Assembly: GCA_944392695.1 (NCBI GenBank)
Contig: CALXXN010000013.1
Location: 1-60,626, forward strand
Length of the DNA stretch: 60,626 nucleotides
Reading direction: 5' to 3'
Origin: an uncultured Spirochaetales bacterium
GTDB taxonomy: Bacteria > Spirochaetota > Spirochaetia > Sphaerochaetales > Sphaerochaetaceae
The position numbers and the translations under genes were made by a program. Positions 6,970-28,012 of this stretch are shown here, piece after piece. The notes beneath the pieces are model-generated. The model ran no database searches and was not told the DNA's origin. It saw only the letters and a list, made by a program, of their open reading frames with translations. Within the stretch, counting starts at the first letter, position 1; every line of letters begins with the position of its first letter.

Positions 6970-8103
6970 ATGTTCTTCATCTTATCCAGCAGCCGTTCCC
7001 TGCGGCGCATGGCAAACAGCTGGTCAACGGCAGACAGGGCCAGGTTCGTCACAAGTTATGAAAGGCTCGCAAAGGAGGCTGCAGCCTGTAGGAAGGATTT
7101 TGGAATCATCCTTGGCGAGGATGCCAGTGTCGAGGACATAAGGGCGGTATCTGTGGACTTCCTCCACAACAGCCGTGTCATCTTCATAATCTTCCTAGTG
7201 CCATGCTCAGACCATCCAGGCATACATGTAGCCCACAGTCATGTGCATTTCACGACAAAAGACCAGCTGGGACTGCTCCTGCCAGCCCTGCTCCCACAGC
7301 CCCAGGAGGCATCAGGCAGGGATGTCGATGAAGAGAGGCTTTCCCATGTATTGATCGGTTCATCTGACATCATGAGGAAACTCAGGCAGCTGATCATCCA
7401 GATAGGCAGGAGCGGTTGCAACTGCCTGATCTGTGGGGAAAGCGGAAGTGGGAAGGAAGACACCGCCAGGGCGGTGGCTGGTGCTGGCGGTTCCAGCAAG
7501 ACGGCCTTCATGAACTGTGCCGCATTAGGTGGTGATGGCTTGGTCGACAGCCACCTCTTCGGCTACAAGAAAGGAGCTTTCACTGGAGCCTATGAGGACA
7601 GCCCGGGGATACTTGATGCGGCTGATGGAGGCAGCCTCCTGCTTGATGAACTGGAGGAACTGCCTCCTCGTGTACAAGCCAAGCTGCTGAGAGTGCTCGA
7701 TGGCCATGGTTACAACCGTATCGGAGAAGCAGACAGGGAGCGTCAGGTAAATTTCAGGGTGATAGGCATGTCAAACAAGAGTGTGACCAGCTTGCGTAAG
7801 GAAGGACGCATGCGCCCTGACTTCTTCATGCGCATAGCCTGTGAGCTGATCGAACTCCCACCACTTCGTGAACATCCAGAGGACATAGGAGAAATCGTAC
7901 GTCACCATGAAGCACTGCTTGGCTATGGGGAGGACCCTATCCAGGACCTGGACTCTCTCATGGCCTACTCCTGGCCTGGCAATGTAAGGGAGCTCGTCAA
8001 TGCTATCGGCATGATCCACCGCAGGGGCAAGGCAAGTGCCCGATTGGAAAGTACTGATTTCGCCCTATCAAGCCGCTTCGAGGAAGGCCTCTTCATGGAG
8101 TAA
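6970..8103 (+). CDS. Sigma-54-activator-like AAA+ ATPase without DNA-binding domain
   Basis: Belongs to the bacterial enhancer-binding proteins that use ATP to remodel sigma-54 RNA polymerase. Seen: a weak receiver-like or unknown N-terminal region (1-115), Walker A GESGSGK (156-162), the sigma-54 contact loop GAFTGA intact at 202-207, Walker B SLLLDE (222-227), a likely arginine finger at Arg282 and WPGNVREL (335-342). The protein stops at 377 soon after the AAA+ lid, so the usual Fis-type helix-turn-helix is missing. Start: ATG 6970 follows AGGA with 5-nt spacing. A stronger AGGAGG at 6911-6916 is not matched by any in-frame start because TGA 6937 intervenes, so an N-terminal frameshift is possible. 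Chlamydial and epsilonproteobacterial activators also lack an HTH and act from solution; by analogy this one may too. The target is unknown and no rpoN lies in the window. Confidence 0.8.
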   Translation: MFFILSSSRSLRRMANSWSTADRARFVTSYERLAKEAAACRKDFGIILGEDASVEDIRAVSVDFLHNSRVIFIIFLVPCSDHPGIHVAHSHVHFTTKDQLGLLLPALLPQPQEASGRDVDEERLSHVLIGSSDIMRKLRQLIIQIGRSGCNCLICGESGSGKEDTARAVAGAGGSSKTAFMNCAALGGDGLVDSHLFGYKKGAFTGAYEDSPGILDAADGGSLLLDELEELPPRVQAKLLRVLDGHGYNRIGEADRERQVNFRVIGMSNKSVTSLRKEGRMRPDFFMRIACELIELPPLREHPEDIGEIVRHHEALLGYGEDPIQDLDSLMAYSWPGNVRELVNAIGMIHRRGKASARLESTDFALSSRFEEGLFME

Positions 8104-8145
8104 GAGCGTCTGGCACACCATACGCCACCACAGGACCAAAAGGGG

Positions 8146-8470
8146 TTTTCCACAGGCTTATCTCATGCAGGATGGGTAGTTGTGAGAATCCACAGATTTT
8201 GTTGAAACTGTTGAAAACCTGTTGAAAACTGACTTTTCAACAGGTCTTTTTCTGACTTTCCACAAGCTTGTTGAAAAGTCATTCCTATATAATTCCTGAT
8301 GCGTTCCAATTGCATATGACTTAAAATAATTCTTTTCGTATGAATTAATTACAAAAAGTTTCAACTTTGAGTCGAAATAGTGTCAGAGGCATATGCGATC
8401 AGAAGTTTTCCACTTTTACACCAACTTTTCCACAGGCTTGTTGAAAACATGTGGAAAACCCAGTGGAAAA
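8146..8470. other. Cluster of DnaA-box-like 9-mers around an AT-rich core
   Basis: The 457-bp gap between the AAA+ gene and murA holds about a dozen 9-mers of the form TTTTCCACA or TTTTCAACA, or their complements. TTTTCCACA: 8146, 8426 (TTTTCCACT at 8406). TTTTCAACA: 8234. TGTTGAAAA: 8209, 8220, 8269, 8439. TGTGGAAAA: 8450 (AGTGGAAAA at 8462). One-mismatch forms start at 8186, 8199 and 8256. Two pairs face each other across 4 bp (8256-8277 and 8426-8447). The middle (about 8281-8370) is AT-rich and lacks boxes, resembling an unwinding element. TTTTCCACA is a known DnaA-box variant in some phyla. No coding gene is seen in this gap. Confidence 0.65.
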
Positions 8471-8560
8471 CCATATATAGTGCCCCTCGGGACAAAGGGA
8501 GCAGGAAAGGCATCATAGGACACTCTCCTGCGCTTCCTGTATTCCTGACAAGCTTTTGCC

Positions 8561-9844
8561 TCAATCAAGACGCCTGATTGAAGCACCTATCATGGAGAGC
8601 TTGGTCAACAGGTCTTCGTAGCCCCGCTCTATCTGCTCGATGTTATGGATCCTGGAGCTTCCATCGGCGCACAATGCGGCTACGAGCAGGGCCATTCCCG
8701 CCCTGACATCAGGACTGGTGACCTCGCGTCCACGCAGGCGGCCCGGTCCCCTGACAACAGCCCTGTGGGGGTCGCAGAGGATTATGTCAGCCCCCATGCG
8801 GATCAGGTAGTCGATGAAGAACATGCGGCTTTCGAACATCTTCTCATGGATGAGGATGCTTCCCTCCATCTGTGTTGCTGTGACTGCCATTATCGACAGG
8901 AGGTCTGCAGGAAATCCCGGCCAAGGTGCGTCATCAAGTTTCTCAGTCACCCCACTGCCAGTGCGGGCAATGACCCGGGCTTGCTCATCGGAGATTGAAA
9001 TGACGTCATCGGACACGCTGAATGTCACTCCAAGCTTTGAAAACCCCCTGCTGATTGGACGTATGAAGGATGAATCGATGCCTGTCAGCTGCAAGGACGA
9101 CCTGGTACATGCGGCAAGTCCTATGAAAGAGCCGCATTCCATGTAGTCAGCCCCTATGCGGAAAGCACAACCATGCAAGGCTTCCACGCCATGGACACGC
9201 AAAAGGTTTGAACCTATGCCCTCTATCTCACATCCCATCGCACCAAGCATATGGCAGAGGTCCTGGACATGAGGTTCACAGGCTGCGTTGTAGATGGTGC
9301 TCACACCATCCGCAAGGGCGGCCGCCATGATGATGTTCTCGGTGGCTGTGACTGAAGCCTCATCCAAGTGGATATATGCGGCCTTGAGGCGTCCACCTGG
9401 TTTCAAGACAAGCATGCCATCCTCCCTGACGGAGCAATCGACACCAAGGCAGCTGAAGCCTAGGAAGTGGCTGTCTATCCTCCTCAGTCCTATGACATCG
9501 CCTCCTGGAGGTGGGAGCACAAGATCAAAGCCCCTGGCAAGCAGAGGACCTGCGAAAAGTATGGATCCCCGTACGGAATCGACCAGTGAAGGGCTCAGCC
9601 CATTGAAGTGGACATCGCTCCTGATGCAGTAGCAACCGTCCCCTAGTCCTATGACCTGGCTGCCAAGCTCACCAAGCAGGCGGATCATGACTGACACATC
9701 CCTGATCGCTGGGATGTTCCTTAATGTAACGGTCTCATCAGTCAGCAGGCTGGCCGCCAGGCATGGCAAGGCCGCGTTCTTGTTCCCACTTATCCTGACA
9801 GTCCCATTGAAGGCGGATCCACCTTGAATCACATAAGAAGCCAT
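8561..9844 (-). CDS. murA: UDP-N-acetylglucosamine 1-carboxyvinyltransferase (Asp-type active site)
   Basis: First committed step of peptidoglycan synthesis: transfers enolpyruvate from PEP to UDP-GlcNAc in the cytoplasm. Seen: SGNKNAALP with the catalytic Lys22, VRGSILFAGPLLAR, and the active-site loop PPGGDVIGLRRIDSH in which Asp116 replaces the catalytic Cys (Cys115 in E. coli). The C-terminal SPDVRAGMALLVAAL carries the conserved Arg. At 427 aa it has the usual length. Start: ATG 9844; the open frame extends further upstream but family homology begins here. GGAGG is only 1 nt before this ATG, while TATCAT ends 6 nt before it, fitting a leaderless start. Known for the family: Cys-to-Asp enzymes are active but not alkylated by fosfomycin. 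Confidence 0.95.
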   Translation of the reverse strand: MASYVIQGGSAFNGTVRISGNKNAALPCLAASLLTDETVTLRNIPAIRDVSVMIRLLGELGSQVIGLGDGCYCIRSDVHFNGLSPSLVDSVRGSILFAGPLLARGFDLVLPPPGGDVIGLRRIDSHFLGFSCLGVDCSVREDGMLVLKPGGRLKAAYIHLDEASVTATENIIMAAALADGVSTIYNAACEPHVQDLCHMLGAMGCEIEGIGSNLLRVHGVEALHGCAFRIGADYMECGSFIGLAACTRSSLQLTGIDSSFIRPISRGFSKLGVTFSVSDDVISISDEQARVIARTGSGVTEKLDDAPWPGFPADLLSIMAVTATQMEGSILIHEKMFESRMFFIDYLIRMGADIILCDPHRAVVRGPGRLRGREVTSPDVRAGMALLVAALCADGSSRIHNIEQIERGYEDLLTKLSMIGASIRRLD

Positions 9845-9850
9845 GCCTCC

Positions 9851-9914: not shown

Positions 9915-10997
9915 ATGGAAAGCAATCGCGAAGCGGCAGCAGCTGTCGTATCGGAATTCCAGATCCCTGGACGTCTTGTGGATATCAAGGTCAACACACA
10001 GGGCCACATAAACTCGACCTTCATCTCAACCTTCGAAGATGAAGATGGACGCAAGCGGAAATACACCCACCAGAGGATCAACCAAAATGTCTTCAAGAAG
10101 CCTGAAGAGGTTATGGAGAACATACTCCTGGTCACAAAGCACATAGAGGAGAAAGTCTTCTCCTGCCCTGACAAGGAAAGGCGCTGCCTCCATGTCGTTC
10201 CTGCCAAGGATGGCAGGCCCTGGCATGTAGACCCAGAAGGCGGCTATTGGAGGACCTACGGTTTCATCGAGGATGTGAACACCTATGACACAATCCCCTC
10301 CTTGGAAGCGGCAAGGAACCTTGGACGTGGTATTGGAACCTTCCAGAAGCAGCTTTCCGACTTCGATGGAGCCCAGCTGAATATCACAATCCCACGCTTC
10401 CACGACATGGGCATGCGCTATGGACAGCTGGATGAAGCCATCAAGGCAGATCCCAAAGGCCGTGTCGCACTCGTGAAAGAGGAGCTGGACTTCCTCATGG
10501 CCAACAAGGAACGAGGTTGCAGGATCTGGGATGCTTTCGAGAGTGGCAAGTTGCCCAACCGTGTCACCCATAACGACACCAAGATCAACAACGTCCTATT
10601 CGATCCTGTCACTGACGAGGCTGTCTGTGTCATCGACCTTGACACGATCATGCCAGGTACGATCCTCTTCGATACAGGCGACATGATCCGTACCGCCTGC
10701 AACACAGGCGCAGAGGATGAGAAAGACCTTTCCCTCATCTCCTTCAACAGGGATATGTACAAGGCCTTGATTGGGGGGTACATGGAAATCGCAAAGGACT
10801 TCCTCACTGCAGATGAAGGTGAACTGATCAAGGAATCCGGCCGCGTGATCACCCAGATCATGGCCGTGCGCTTCCTGACTGACTACATCGCAGGAGACAC
10901 CTACTACCATACCGCATATGAAGACCACAACCTCGTCAGGACACGCACACAGCTTGCCCTGATCCACAGCATGGACGAGCAGTGGGACCTGTACTGA
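9915..10997 (+). CDS. N-acetylhexosamine 1-kinase-like phosphotransferase
   Basis: APH/choline-kinase fold. Closely resembles bifidobacterial NahK, which phosphorylates GlcNAc/GalNAc at C1 in mucin and milk-sugar salvage. Seen: nucleotide-loop motif GHINSTF (about 31-37), catalytic RVTHNDTKINNVLFD (His-Asn-Asp, about 216-230) and metal-binding VIDLDTIMPGTILFDTGD. The 360-aa length equals NahK. AGGAGG seven bases upstream supports ATG 9915. It is followed 10 bp later by a PfkB kinase with its own AGGAGG, so the two form a kinase operon. The exact sugar is inferred from similarity to NahK; other hexosamines or a related sugar are possible. Confidence 0.82.
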   Translation: MESNREAAAAVVSEFQIPGRLVDIKVNTQGHINSTFISTFEDEDGRKRKYTHQRINQNVFKKPEEVMENILLVTKHIEEKVFSCPDKERRCLHVVPAKDGRPWHVDPEGGYWRTYGFIEDVNTYDTIPSLEAARNLGRGIGTFQKQLSDFDGAQLNITIPRFHDMGMRYGQLDEAIKADPKGRVALVKEELDFLMANKERGCRIWDAFESGKLPNRVTHNDTKINNVLFDPVTDEAVCVIDLDTIMPGTILFDTGDMIRTACNTGAEDEKDLSLISFNRDMYKALIGGYMEIAKDFLTADEGELIKESGRVITQIMAVRFLTDYIAGDTYYHTAYEDHNLVRTRTQLALIHSMDEQWDLY

Positions 10998-19169: not shown

Positions 19170-19357
19170 GTCTTACTCCTCTCGTAGCAGTCTTGATGGA
19201 AGTATAACAGCTGGATGGGAAAAATCACAGCAGGATGCTGCTTTCGCATGTACAGTCCATCAAGCAGCTGTTTTGGCAACAAGACGACTGATGTTACTAC
19301 CATTACTATTAAAGGTATTTTCAAGACTTCGTCGTAGTAATAGTAATGGCTGTTAAT

Positions 19358-19567
19358 TGTTGAAAACCTGTTCAAGTCTTTTTCAGATTTGTTTTTATAA
19401 AGAGCAAAAGTCTTGTTGACAACCTGTTGGATCCTGATGCTGTGATCGTTGGATCGTTGAAAAGCCGGACAGTCATTCTTGTGTTTTCAACAAAGCCTGT
19501 TTTTTCCACAGGACCTTTCAACAGCTTTTGAGAGTCTTATCAACAGCTTTTCAACAAGTTTTCCACA
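19358..19567. other. Probable oriC: DnaA-box cluster between dnaN and dnaA
   Basis: The 460-bp dnaN-dnaA gap carries TGTTGAAAA (19358), TTTTCAACA (19484, 19548), TTTTCCACA (19502, 19559), CTTTCAACA (19515) and TTATCAACA (19537). Six of the seven lie in the last 85 bp, close to the dnaA terminator. AT-rich DNA lies at about 19380-19400. The setting is the classical one for a bacterial origin, and the boxes match those at 8.1-8.5 kb. No coding gene is seen in this stretch. Confidence 0.72.
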
Positions 19568-19580
19568 ATTCACGTAGATG

Positions 19581-19610
19581 AAACAAAACCCCAGCACTGG
19601 ACTGGGGCTT
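19581..19610 (-). terminator. Terminator of dnaA
   Basis: CCCCAG (19589-19594) pairs with CTGGGG (19602-19607) around a 7-nt loop. On the minus strand it is followed by TTTTGTTT. It begins about 20 nt after the dnaA stop and abuts the DnaA-box cluster. Confidence 0.8.
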
Positions 19611-19629
19611 CATGTTACGTTGGGTATGA

Positions 19630-20979
19630 TCAGCGTGACTTGCTGCGTATCGATGTCTCAAGGGCATCCAATGCGCTTGCGAGCTCGGCGTTGGTCTTCC
19701 TCTCCTTCTCCACCTTGTCGATTGAATGTGTGATTGTCGAGTGGTCCCGGTCGAAATAGGTGCCGATCTCAGTTGTCGAGTACTGTGTTATCTTGCGTGT
19801 AAGGTAGATCGCAGTGTTACGTGCGTCCTTGATGATGGCTGTACGTTTCTTGCCCTTGATCTCGCTGACTTCGACATTGTAATAGGAGGATACCTCCTTC
19901 ACTATGCTTCCAATCGAGATGTCCTGCTCACCTGCCATTGGAGCTGCGATGATGTTCTTCAACTGCTCCTGGGCGACTTCCAGTGTGATTTTTGATCCAA
20001 TCAGGTTGGAATAGGCTATCAAAGTGGTGAGTGAGCCTTCCAGGTCCCTGACATTGGTCTTTATGTTCTCTGCGATGTAATTGAGGACGCTGTCGTAAAT
20101 CCTGACGCCCTTGTCATCACACTTGCGTTTCAATATGGCGACGCGTGTCTCATAATCAGGAGCCGTAAGGTTGATGTTGAGACCACGGCTGAAACGTGAC
20201 TTCAAGCGGTCTGTGAAGCCTTTGAGCTCACTGATTGGACGGTCGCAGGTGAAGACAATCTGCTTGTTCGTCTCATAAAGGTCGTTGAATGTATGGAAGA
20301 GTTCCTCCTGTGTTGAGATCTTCTTCTCAAAAAAGTGGATGTCATCAACAAGCAGGACGTCTGCCTTGCGGTACTTGATGCGGAATTGTGAGGTGTTCTT
20401 ATCTGTCAATGACTGTATGTAGTCATTTGTGAAGGTCTCCGCTGTCACATACACGACGTTCTTCCTTGGATCCTCTTTCTCAATGTAGTTTCCAATTGAT
20501 TCGAGCAGATGGGTCTTGCCCAAGCCTACACCACCATAGATCAGGCAGGGGTTGTAGCTTACACCAGGGTGCATGGCAATGGCCTTCGCTGCGTTGTAAG
20601 CGAAAAGCGTGTTCTCACATGGGATGAAGTTGTCAAAGGTGTAGGCAGGGTTCAGCAGGCTGCGCCTTCCAGATGCCCTGTTGTCATGATAAGTTTCGAC
20701 TTCCTGTGCCTCATCATCGTCACCACCTTCAATCATCTCATCCGTCGTGATGTTGATGTCGAGGTTTATCCTGCGTCCTGTAAGCTCTTCCATGACGCGT
20801 TCGAGTTCTGATTTGCAATACTTCTCGAAGTTGGTCCTGACCATGACTGAATCACAGGTGAGATGTAGTGTGTCACCATCCTCTCCTGCATAACTGACAT
20901 AGTCCAACCAGAGCGTGCTCGACTGTGGCATCGAGCTTCCAAGCTCCTCAAGCGCCTTGTACCATGTGTTTTCCAACAT
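19630..20979 (-). CDS. dnaA: Chromosomal replication initiator DnaA
   Basis: AAA+ initiator that binds DnaA boxes and melts the origin. Seen: an N-terminal helicase-interaction domain (about 1-80), an acidic/variable linker, Walker A GGVGLGKTHLLESIG (about 148-162), Walker B LLVDDIHFF, and the C-terminal box-binding helix-turn-helix ending DRDHSTITHSIDKVEKE. 449 aa from ATG 20979. That ATG is chosen because TATGAT ends exactly 7 nt upstream with a TTGAAA -35, whereas the upstream ATGs (20991, 21015) lie inside the promoter and lack a Shine-Dalgarno. Divergent from gyrB. Confidence 0.97.
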   Translation of the reverse strand: MLENTWYKALEELGSSMPQSSTLWLDYVSYAGEDGDTLHLTCDSVMVRTNFEKYCKSELERVMEELTGRRINLDINITTDEMIEGGDDDEAQEVETYHDNRASGRRSLLNPAYTFDNFIPCENTLFAYNAAKAIAMHPGVSYNPCLIYGGVGLGKTHLLESIGNYIEKEDPRKNVVYVTAETFTNDYIQSLTDKNTSQFRIKYRKADVLLVDDIHFFEKKISTQEELFHTFNDLYETNKQIVFTCDRPISELKGFTDRLKSRFSRGLNINLTAPDYETRVAILKRKCDDKGVRIYDSVLNYIAENIKTNVRDLEGSLTTLIAYSNLIGSKITLEVAQEQLKNIIAAPMAGEQDISIGSIVKEVSSYYNVEVSEIKGKKRTAIIKDARNTAIYLTRKITQYSTTEIGTYFDRDHSTITHSIDKVEKERKTNAELASALDALETSIRSKSR

Positions 20980-20986
20980 GACCACT

Positions 20987-21015
20987 ATCATATGGGTGGT
21001 GACGCCCTTTTTCAA
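20987..21015 (-). promoter_or_regulatory. dnaA promoter, predicted leaderless
   Basis: Minus strand TTGAAA (21010-21015), 17-bp spacer, TATGAT (20987-20992), then AGTGGTC (7 nt) and ATG 20979. Near-consensus, and the best example of the leaderless class in this window. Confidence 0.78.
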
Positions 21016-26042: not shown

Positions 26043-26056
26043 GTTTCACGTGAAAC
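26043..26056. other. parS site 1
   Basis: Perfect palindrome GTTTCACGTGAAAC, the core of the universal bacterial parS consensus bound by ParB. Confidence 0.9.
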
Positions 26057-26157
26057 AGTGGCGGTGTGTCACTTTGCTTTTTTTCTATCTGTCTTATTCT
26101 GGATGAAATTGTATGAAATCGTGTTTTTACACTTATTCGTAATTAGTAATCCCAGAT

Positions 26158-26171
26158 GTTTCACGTGAAAC
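26158..26171. other. parS site 2
   Basis: GTTTCACGTGAAAC, preceded by T as in the full 16-mer consensus; 115 bp from site 1. Confidence 0.9.
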
Positions 26172-26253
26172 CATCATTGGTTTACTTTCAATTTGAACTA
26201 TAGAAGTATTTGATTTTGCTTTTCTTTTCTTAAGGTAGTGATATTTATAGTTT

Positions 26254-26267
26254 GTTTCACGTGAAAC
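26254..26267. other. parS site 3
   Basis: GTTTCACGTGAAAC, flanked by T on the left and G on the right. Confidence 0.9.
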
Positions 26268-26531
26268 GTTCAAATCGATGAATATATGAAAGTATGTGCT
26301 TTTTAAAACCAGTTTTTTCTCCTTGCCTTGTTTGGTGTGATAGTTTTATGTAGTTTTTTTTTTAATGTGTATAGTGATGTTGGTTTTAAGCTGGTTTATA
26401 GAATTGTAAGTGAAAGCATATTGTTCTTATTTTTTTATGCTTTCTGATATGATGATTGATTTTGGTTTGAATAAAGCATGTTGTTGAGTTTTCTTGTTTG
26501 TAGAGGTTTTTTATATCAGGGTTTGTGTTTG

Positions 26532-26545
26532 GTTTCACGTGAAAC
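26532..26545. other. parS site 4
   Basis: GTTTCACGTGAAAC. In translation it yields the VSRET that makes a spurious 61-aa frame look peptide-like. Confidence 0.9.
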
Positions 26546-26826
26546 TATTTTAGAGTTATGTGTCATGTTTTGTTTGTTTAATTTTTGTTCTTTTATAGGA
26601 TTTTGCTTTGCCGTATGTATCTTACATTACAAATATTTTTTTGACTGCTGTGATACGAGCTAATTTATATTGTGGTATTTATGTGTAAGGTTCTTGTTTT
26701 TGTGAAGTATCTAATATATTAGTTGTATAGTAATTATAGCTAGTACTTTTTGCGCATTCATGCTGAGTATTGTGAAGCTCTGCTACCTTGAATACCTGAT
26801 GGGCTTGAACTAAAGGTCGTTGACTT

Positions 26827-26840
26827 GTTTCACGTGAAAC
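26827..26840. other. parS site 5
   Basis: GTTTCACGTGAAAC inside a full 16-bp consensus TGTTTCACGTGAAACA (26826-26841), immediately next to the nfu terminator and about 400 bp upstream of parA. Confidence 0.93.
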
Positions 26841-27244: not shown

Positions 27245-28012
27245 ATGAGTGCGAATAAGATAATCCTGCTCAATCAAAAGGGTGGGGTCGGAAAGACAAC
27301 GACTTGTGTCAACCTCGGCTCATCACTAGCAGCCTTGAACTACAAGGTCCTCCTTGTGGATTTCGATTCACAGGGTAATCTTACAGGTGCTGTATCCGGG
27401 GATGGTAGGAAGGCCACGATGTATGATGTCATCACGGGGCGGGTGGATGCCCCTGCGGCTGTTCAGGAGACACCTTTCCAGAACCTCTATCTTATTCCTG
27501 GCTCAATCGACCTCGCTGGCCTTACAGTGGAGCTTGCAGATGAGGATGACAGGAACTATTACCTTAAGAGAAGGCTCGAGGTCCTTGATGATGAGTACGA
27601 TTTCATCTTAGTGGATTGTCCTCCATCCCTTGGAGTGATCACCATGAATGCCCTGGCTTGGTGTGACAGCATAATCATCCCAATGCAGTGTGAATACTTC
27701 GCAATGGAGGGTTTGAACTTGCTGATGCGCACTGTCAGCAATGTCAGGAAGGGTCTCAATCCTGATATCAAGATCCTGGGTATACTCTTCACGATGTTCT
27801 CAAAGAGGAACAAGCTCAATGCCGAGGTTGTGGAGGATACGAGTTCCTTCTTCCCTGACCTCGTGTTCAAGACCATGATCCCCCGCACCATACGCCTTGC
27901 TGAGGCTCCTAGCTATGGTATGCCGATCAACGTCTATGACATAGCCAATGCCGGTAACAAGGCCTATAACGCGCTGGCCAAAGAGGTGGTGAAACGTGTC
28001 TATGAAAGCTAA
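27245..28012 (+). CDS. parA: Chromosome partitioning ATPase ParA/Soj
   Basis: Walker-type ATPase that moves ParB-parS complexes over the nucleoid and, in some bacteria, modulates DnaA. Seen: deviant Walker A KGGVGKTTTCVNLGSSLA (about 11-28), the switch DFDSQGNLTGA, Walker B FILVDCPPSLG and EYFAMEGLNLL. 255 aa, the short chromosomal type without a plasmid-style HTH extension. The start ATG 27245 has no ribosome site and is 7 nt after a -10. It overlaps parB by 11 bp. Confidence 0.97.
   Translation: MSANKIILLNQKGGVGKTTTCVNLGSSLAALNYKVLLVDFDSQGNLTGAVSGDGRKATMYDVITGRVDAPAAVQETPFQNLYLIPGSIDLAGLTVELADEDDRNYYLKRRLEVLDDEYDFILVDCPPSLGVITMNALAWCDSIIIPMQCEYFAMEGLNLLMRTVSNVRKGLNPDIKILGILFTMFSKRNKLNAEVVEDTSSFFPDLVFKTMIPRTIRLAEAPSYGMPINVYDIANAGNKAYNALAKEVVKRVYES

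Follow-up and report, generated by a model that had tools for sequence, protein, structure and literature searches.

The DnaA-box cluster beside murA in the window (the whole stretch of 60,626 nucleotides of a gut spirochaete analysed here) lies about 11 kb from the likely replication origin. Comparison with other genomes shows it to be one case of a cis-element conserved across the class Spirochaetia. The element consists of two direct DnaA-box pairs that stand about 230 bp from each other, and in the window's own genus it is reinforced to a dozen boxes. The comparisons show an autonomous, conserved, non-coding locus of two parts that lies near oriC but not at it. We consider it, with a probability of roughly 85%, to be a DnaA-bound element that is not an origin.

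Content and layout of the DnaA-box cluster

The cluster lies in a gap of exactly 457 bp between an AAA+ gene of the sigma-54 activator type (6970-8103, + strand) and the stop of murA (8561, - strand). From 8146 to 8470 there are eight exact copies of the DnaA box TTTTCMACA and four with one mismatch, arranged in two groups (8146-8277 and 8406-8470) on either side of a box-free centre (Table 1). The GC content of this centre is 32% compared with 53.7% window-wide, and 1.4% of 128-bp stretches are equally AT-rich. Two pairs of boxes face each other across 4 bp, the first box of one pair having a mismatch. The initial annotation had described the length of the gap, the two groups of about a dozen 9-mers, the AT-rich centre and the facing pairs, and all of these are borne out, as is its statement that the gap is richer in boxes than that between dnaA and dnaN (12 versus 10 with at most one mismatch, 8 versus 5 exact).

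Exact TTTTCMACA sites number 14 in the whole window against an expectation of 0.89, and none of 100 shuffles reached this number. The 2.31-Mb genome contains 61 exact boxes, and these form clusters only in the murA-side gap and the dnaA-dnaN gap; there is no third comparable cluster. What is conserved in relatives is not the facing pairs but the two direct pairs, with a step of 11 bp within each and exactly 230 bp between them.

Two further observations were made at this locus. A genus-level motif, CACTAgATAtgG, is found at 8471-8484, immediately outside core pair 1. The murA ORF as listed starts at 10207 and is over-long, the true start being near 9850; its first ~120 codons are antisense to a + strand ORF (9915-10997), and relatives have stops there.

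Table 1. Positions of the murA-side element and of the dnaA-dnaN gap in the window
Feature	Position	Strand	Remarks
Intergenic region holding the whole element	8104..8560		Between convergent AAA+ gene and murA
Core pair 1	8439..8458	-	In murA reading direction TTTTCCACA-TG-TTTTCAACA; two DnaA boxes 11 bp apart
Core pair 2	8209..8228	-	TTTTCAACA-GG-TTTTCAACA; two DnaA boxes 11 bp apart, 230 bp from pair 1
TATATA	8286..8291		Fixed 63-64 bp from core pair 2
AT-rich centre	8278..8405		Box-free, 32% GC
Extra exact DnaA box	8146..8154	+	TTTTCCACA
One-mismatch DnaA box	8200..8208	-	GTTTCAACA
Extra exact DnaA box	8234..8242	+	TTTTCAACA
One-mismatch DnaA box	8256..8264	+	CTTTCCACA; faces 8269-8277 across 4 bp
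Extra exact DnaA box	8269..8277	-	TTTTCAACA
One-mismatch DnaA box	8406..8414	+	TTTTCCACT
Exact DnaA box	8426..8434	+	TTTTCCACA; faces 8439-8447 across 4 bp
One-mismatch DnaA box	8462..8470	-	TTTTCCACT
murA	8561..9850	-	Across the class, the gene most constantly near the element
dnaA-dnaN gap, likely oriC	19170..19629		Five exact boxes; outside the element, for comparison
DnaA-trio run in the dnaA-dnaN gap	about 19335-19346		Beside box 19358-19366

Conservation within the genus

The window's genus appears to be that of Bullifex porci and Candidatus Aphodenecus, in the family Sphaerochaetaceae. Both clusters, at murA and between dnaA and dnaN, are kept in all 14 other genomes of the genus in which both loci are assembled. 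The core at the murA locus is formed throughout by the direct pairs TTTTCCACAAGTTTTCAACA and TTTTCAACAGGTTTTCAACA, each with an 11-bp step, and the spacing between the pairs is 230-231 bp across the genus. Core pair 2 is kept in all 15 genomes and core pair 1 has both boxes intact in 13, one box being degenerate in the other two (G004 and G007). In nearly all members TATATA lies 63-64 bp from pair 2 (it is GATATA in G015), and outside the genus it recurs at the same offset at loci L152-L155, and also at L150, L156 and L163 if counted from the degenerate first box. In one genome (G005) the entire element is inverted with its spacing unchanged, which shows that it can face either way with respect to murA.

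Recurrence across the Spirochaetia

A comparison that drew on 80 murA loci from named genomes found strong boxes in the same direction 190-260 bp apart downstream of murA at 36 of 76 spirochaete loci, and upstream of it at 0 of 74. This range was chosen from the first loci seen, and scans with reversed-pattern controls are the cleaner tests. The TTATCCACA two-box pattern is present in 85 of 296 Spirochaetia genomes and its reversed control in none of the 296; with the box motifs fixed beforehand, such figures are a lower bound on the prevalence of the element. Matches linked to murA occur in about 15 families of the class, as counted by hand from tables of element and murA positions, and later linkage to murA or dnaA was judged from coordinates only. 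Many pattern matches in genus g76 of the Treponemataceae, linked to neither murA nor dnaA, were left out of the element count. The two-box DnaA loci of this genus (family f24; G296, G310, G316, G315, G324, G329 and G333) have a core like GTGTCAATAG.

In Sphaerochaeta-like genomes the boxes are TTATCCACA and the element starts about 36-70 bp past murA. All eight genomes of genus g3 that were checked have an element measuring 242 bp end to end. In Treponema-like and other families other genes come between murA and the element, which lies about 2.5-5 kb downstream. Genus g16 (family f1, Sphaerochaetaceae) has no murA match, and there the element is kept, at 7-12 kb from dnaA, in all four genomes that have the two on one contig (G080, G087, G098 and G107). 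The element is therefore not a murA regulator, as it persists without a murA match; nor is it one gene's promoter, since its flanking genes vary between genomes and in the window's genus converge. Outside this genus, strong boxes often number only two to four per element. The distance from element to dnaA ranges from 7 to about 260 kb among genomes, with the element on either side of dnaA. Helical phasing of the pair spacings was considered and dropped, the spacings outside the family (192-248 bp) being too scattered.

One genome (G053) has a second two-box element (C7:22804-23046) less than 1.5 kb from dnaA, in addition to the murA-linked one at C1:374051, which raises the question of whether the murA element began as a copy of oriC.

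DnaA as the likely ligand

All 15 members of the window's genus have TTTTCMACA boxes both in the dnaA-dnaN gap and in the murA element, and the six Sphaerochaetaceae of other genera that were compared have TTATCMACA at both loci. Among the Spirochaetia compared, the recognition helix of DnaA is changed only in the window's genus, where it reads FDRDHSTITHS rather than a FGGRDHTTVMHA-like sequence, and only there is N found at the position matching Q408 of E. coli DnaA. DnaA very likely binds the murA element, since the boxes at both loci and the recognition helix have changed together; no other evidence speaks as strongly for DnaA as the protein that reads it. In the domain IV helix of DnaA (19633-21015 in the window, and in relatives of the genus) one residue is lost and there are changes of T to S, V to I and A to S. 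The altered helix matches the box switch from TTATCCACA to TTTTCMACA.

Relation to the origin of replication

Three readings of the cluster had been offered in the initial annotation, namely the true origin, half of a bipartite origin, or a DnaA-titration locus. The first of these is not supported, and the dnaA-dnaN gap is likely to be oriC. Cumulative GC skew within the window has its minimum close to dnaN and dnaA, at around 17-18 kb. The assembly to which the window belongs is fragmented, and skew at far range was taken from relatives. The skew changes at dnaA (1.162 Mb) in G041 and not at the murA-linked element (1.258 Mb), and in G060 it changes at dnaA, where the record starts, and again not at the murA-linked element (146 kb). 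The separation of dnaA and element in these two genomes is thus 96-146 kb, and the sign change of GC skew by which an oriC is recognized is absent from the element in both. In G042 the skew also changes at dnaA; the two-box match there is unlinked to murA and hence provides no test of the element.

The mean skew in Sphaerochaetaceae is -0.046 to the left of the element, -0.040 from the element to dnaA and +0.066 past dnaA. Over the window and 17 relatives from this family the skew agrees with dnaA, the 11-15 kb concerned being near the limit of resolution. When stratified by gene strand, the interval between element and dnaA has an intermediate skew, nearer to that of the far side. The Sphaerochaetaceae skew data by themselves would not be decisive. 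Fourfold-site skew was set aside, as it tracked gene direction and had the opposite sign in Sphaerochaetaceae.

The DnaA-trio motif (as defined in PMC8287927) separates the two loci further. A DnaA box followed by at least three trios occurs in the dnaA-dnaN gap of 11 of the 15 genus genomes (14 of 15 for at least two trios), and a run of at least three is found at the murA element in none of the 15. At looser control sites, a set that includes dnaA-dnaN gaps, 11 of 543 have at least three trios. The trio stretch in the window has an inverted copy ~40 bp to its left (19290-19348; CCATTACTATTA / TAGTAATAGTAATGG), and the two might form a hairpin where unwinding takes place. A trio module at the dnaA-dnaN gap only, and skew that changes at dnaA in G041 and G060, are what tell against the element as true origin. 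Half of a bipartite origin is also unlikely, since among genomes the element is as near to dnaA as 7 kb and as far from it as about 260 kb, and can be on either side of it; the clusters of a bipartite oriC flank dnaA in adjacent intergenic regions, and the element is not so placed.

Possible functions of the element

The third reading, that of a DnaA-titration locus, is compatible with the findings and is the closest of the three to the conclusion favoured here. The rigid paired architecture suggests that the element may do more than titrate passively, and the strong boxes outside the genus, often two to four, are few for a passive sink. Titration, inactivation and reactivation of DnaA at such a site are indistinguishable by sequence, and we lean slightly towards negative control of initiation, by a sink or by inactivation. 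DnaA would occupy both box pairs, the AT-rich centre with its TATATA might, at a guess, bend, and the two DnaA groups would then join in a loop. The element would be copied soon after oriC fires, and its doubled copy number would withdraw or inactivate DnaA and so hinder re-initiation, by analogy with datA or the B. subtilis DnaA-box clusters. As the element can be up to about 260 kb from dnaA (G273), an argument from early duplication alone is weaker. Whether the element is an ancestral DnaA-regulatory locus of the Spirochaetia, with two paired sites about 22 helical turns apart on which a DnaA loop complex controls initiation, and thus an independent counterpart of datA and DARS with its own architecture, is in our estimate evenly balanced.

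A positive locus like DARS, at which bound DnaA would swap ADP for ATP and promote the next initiation, is unlikely. The element is, as DARS is, a short non-coding DnaA-box locus, and the window's genus has one forward box opposed to two reverse boxes in tandem (8426-8458), DARS cores being composed of three boxes (PMC4585315); however, the core shared by the class is made up of two direct pairs far from each other rather than of three boxes, and outside the genus a facing box does not occur regularly. An AT-rich core that holds a fixed TATATA and has boxes on either side also resembles an origin, and the intermediate skew seen after stratification would suit a second DnaA-dependent unwinding site, whether an accessory origin, an ancestral one or the far half of a bipartite origin. 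Such a site is improbable given that the skew changes at dnaA where the two are far apart, that the trio run is absent from the element in all 15 genus genomes, and that the element shifts so widely about dnaA.

A DnaA-controlled promoter or a small RNA gene inside the element would account for a TATATAAT-like sequence at a fixed place, and an LptF/G-like operon lies immediately downstream of the element in Treponema-like loci. In the window's genus, however, it lies between two convergent 3' ends, and it stays while its neighbours change, which makes this distinctly unlikely. A promoter and terminator scan of the element gave results at chance level, and an Rfam search of it found no family at the cut-off, with weak, unrelated matches far below. 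The origin-proximal position and rigid two-site architecture, together with a parS array that the window has within the same 20 kb, could also point to a site that organizes or segregates the origin domain, with DnaA as a DNA-bridging protein. To this we attach little probability, as the distance to dnaA varies widely and parS is on the opposite side of dnaA from the element; we know of no precedent for DnaA in a bridging or segregation role. The array itself has five perfect parS cores (TTTCACGTGAAA; 26044-26839). They lie in a stretch (25.76-26.9 kb) that is AT-rich and for the most part non-coding, with gyrA on one side and on the other a probable ParA-type ORF that starts at 27245. Very improbable is the binding of a protein other than DnaA to sites that resemble DnaA boxes by coincidence, as the boxes match those of oriC genus by genus and have changed at both loci along with the DnaA helix.

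Significance and comparison with known systems

A description of the element was not found in the literature searched, subscription journals being mostly outside its scope, nor were relevant papers joining Treponema DnaA boxes with murA, or Sphaerochaeta with a replication origin and DnaA. The extra-origin DnaA-control loci that were found described (datA, DARS and DnaA-box clusters) are those of E. coli and B. subtilis. One locus of ~330 bp whose layout is fixed in many spirochaete families is a defined deletion target, and it could tell whether bacteria commonly rely on a dedicated site for DnaA control. The change of helix and boxes at both loci in one genus amounts to a natural experiment on DnaA-box recognition.

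In E. coli, bending of datA is thought to bring DnaA groups together, and its deletion causes untimely initiation (PMC10380432). Both datA and the murA element are non-coding, intergenic clusters of several strong DnaA boxes, proximal to the origin but off oriC, and in both the boxes flank a bendable stretch (putative in the element) and spacing matters (PMC10380432, PMC4585315). They differ in that the minimal region of datA measures 187 bp and has an IHF site between its boxes, whereas the murA element has direct pairs about 230 bp apart and murA for a neighbour; homology is known only in the boxes. Two distant direct pairs as the conserved core also set the element apart from DARS1 and DARS2 of E. 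coli.

The B. subtilis DnaA-box clusters (DBCs) lie outside oriC, as the element does, and deletion of all six leads to early initiation, according to a review (PMC5295017). The element is a single clustered locus with a rigid two-pair layout in many families. The bipartite oriC of B. subtilis has two DnaA-box clusters near dnaA (PMC5295017), as has the window, but bipartite origins straddle dnaA, whereas the element is 7-260 kb off and is without an unwinding module. DnaA boxes are enriched close to the origin in E. coli and Salmonella, where they titrate DnaA (PMC12371093); this enrichment is a statistical density over many sites, whereas the murA element is one compact, structured locus. 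Although the element would function as loci of a known kind do, its layout, its neighbour gene and its lineage-wide conservation are its own and place it outside both datA and DARS.
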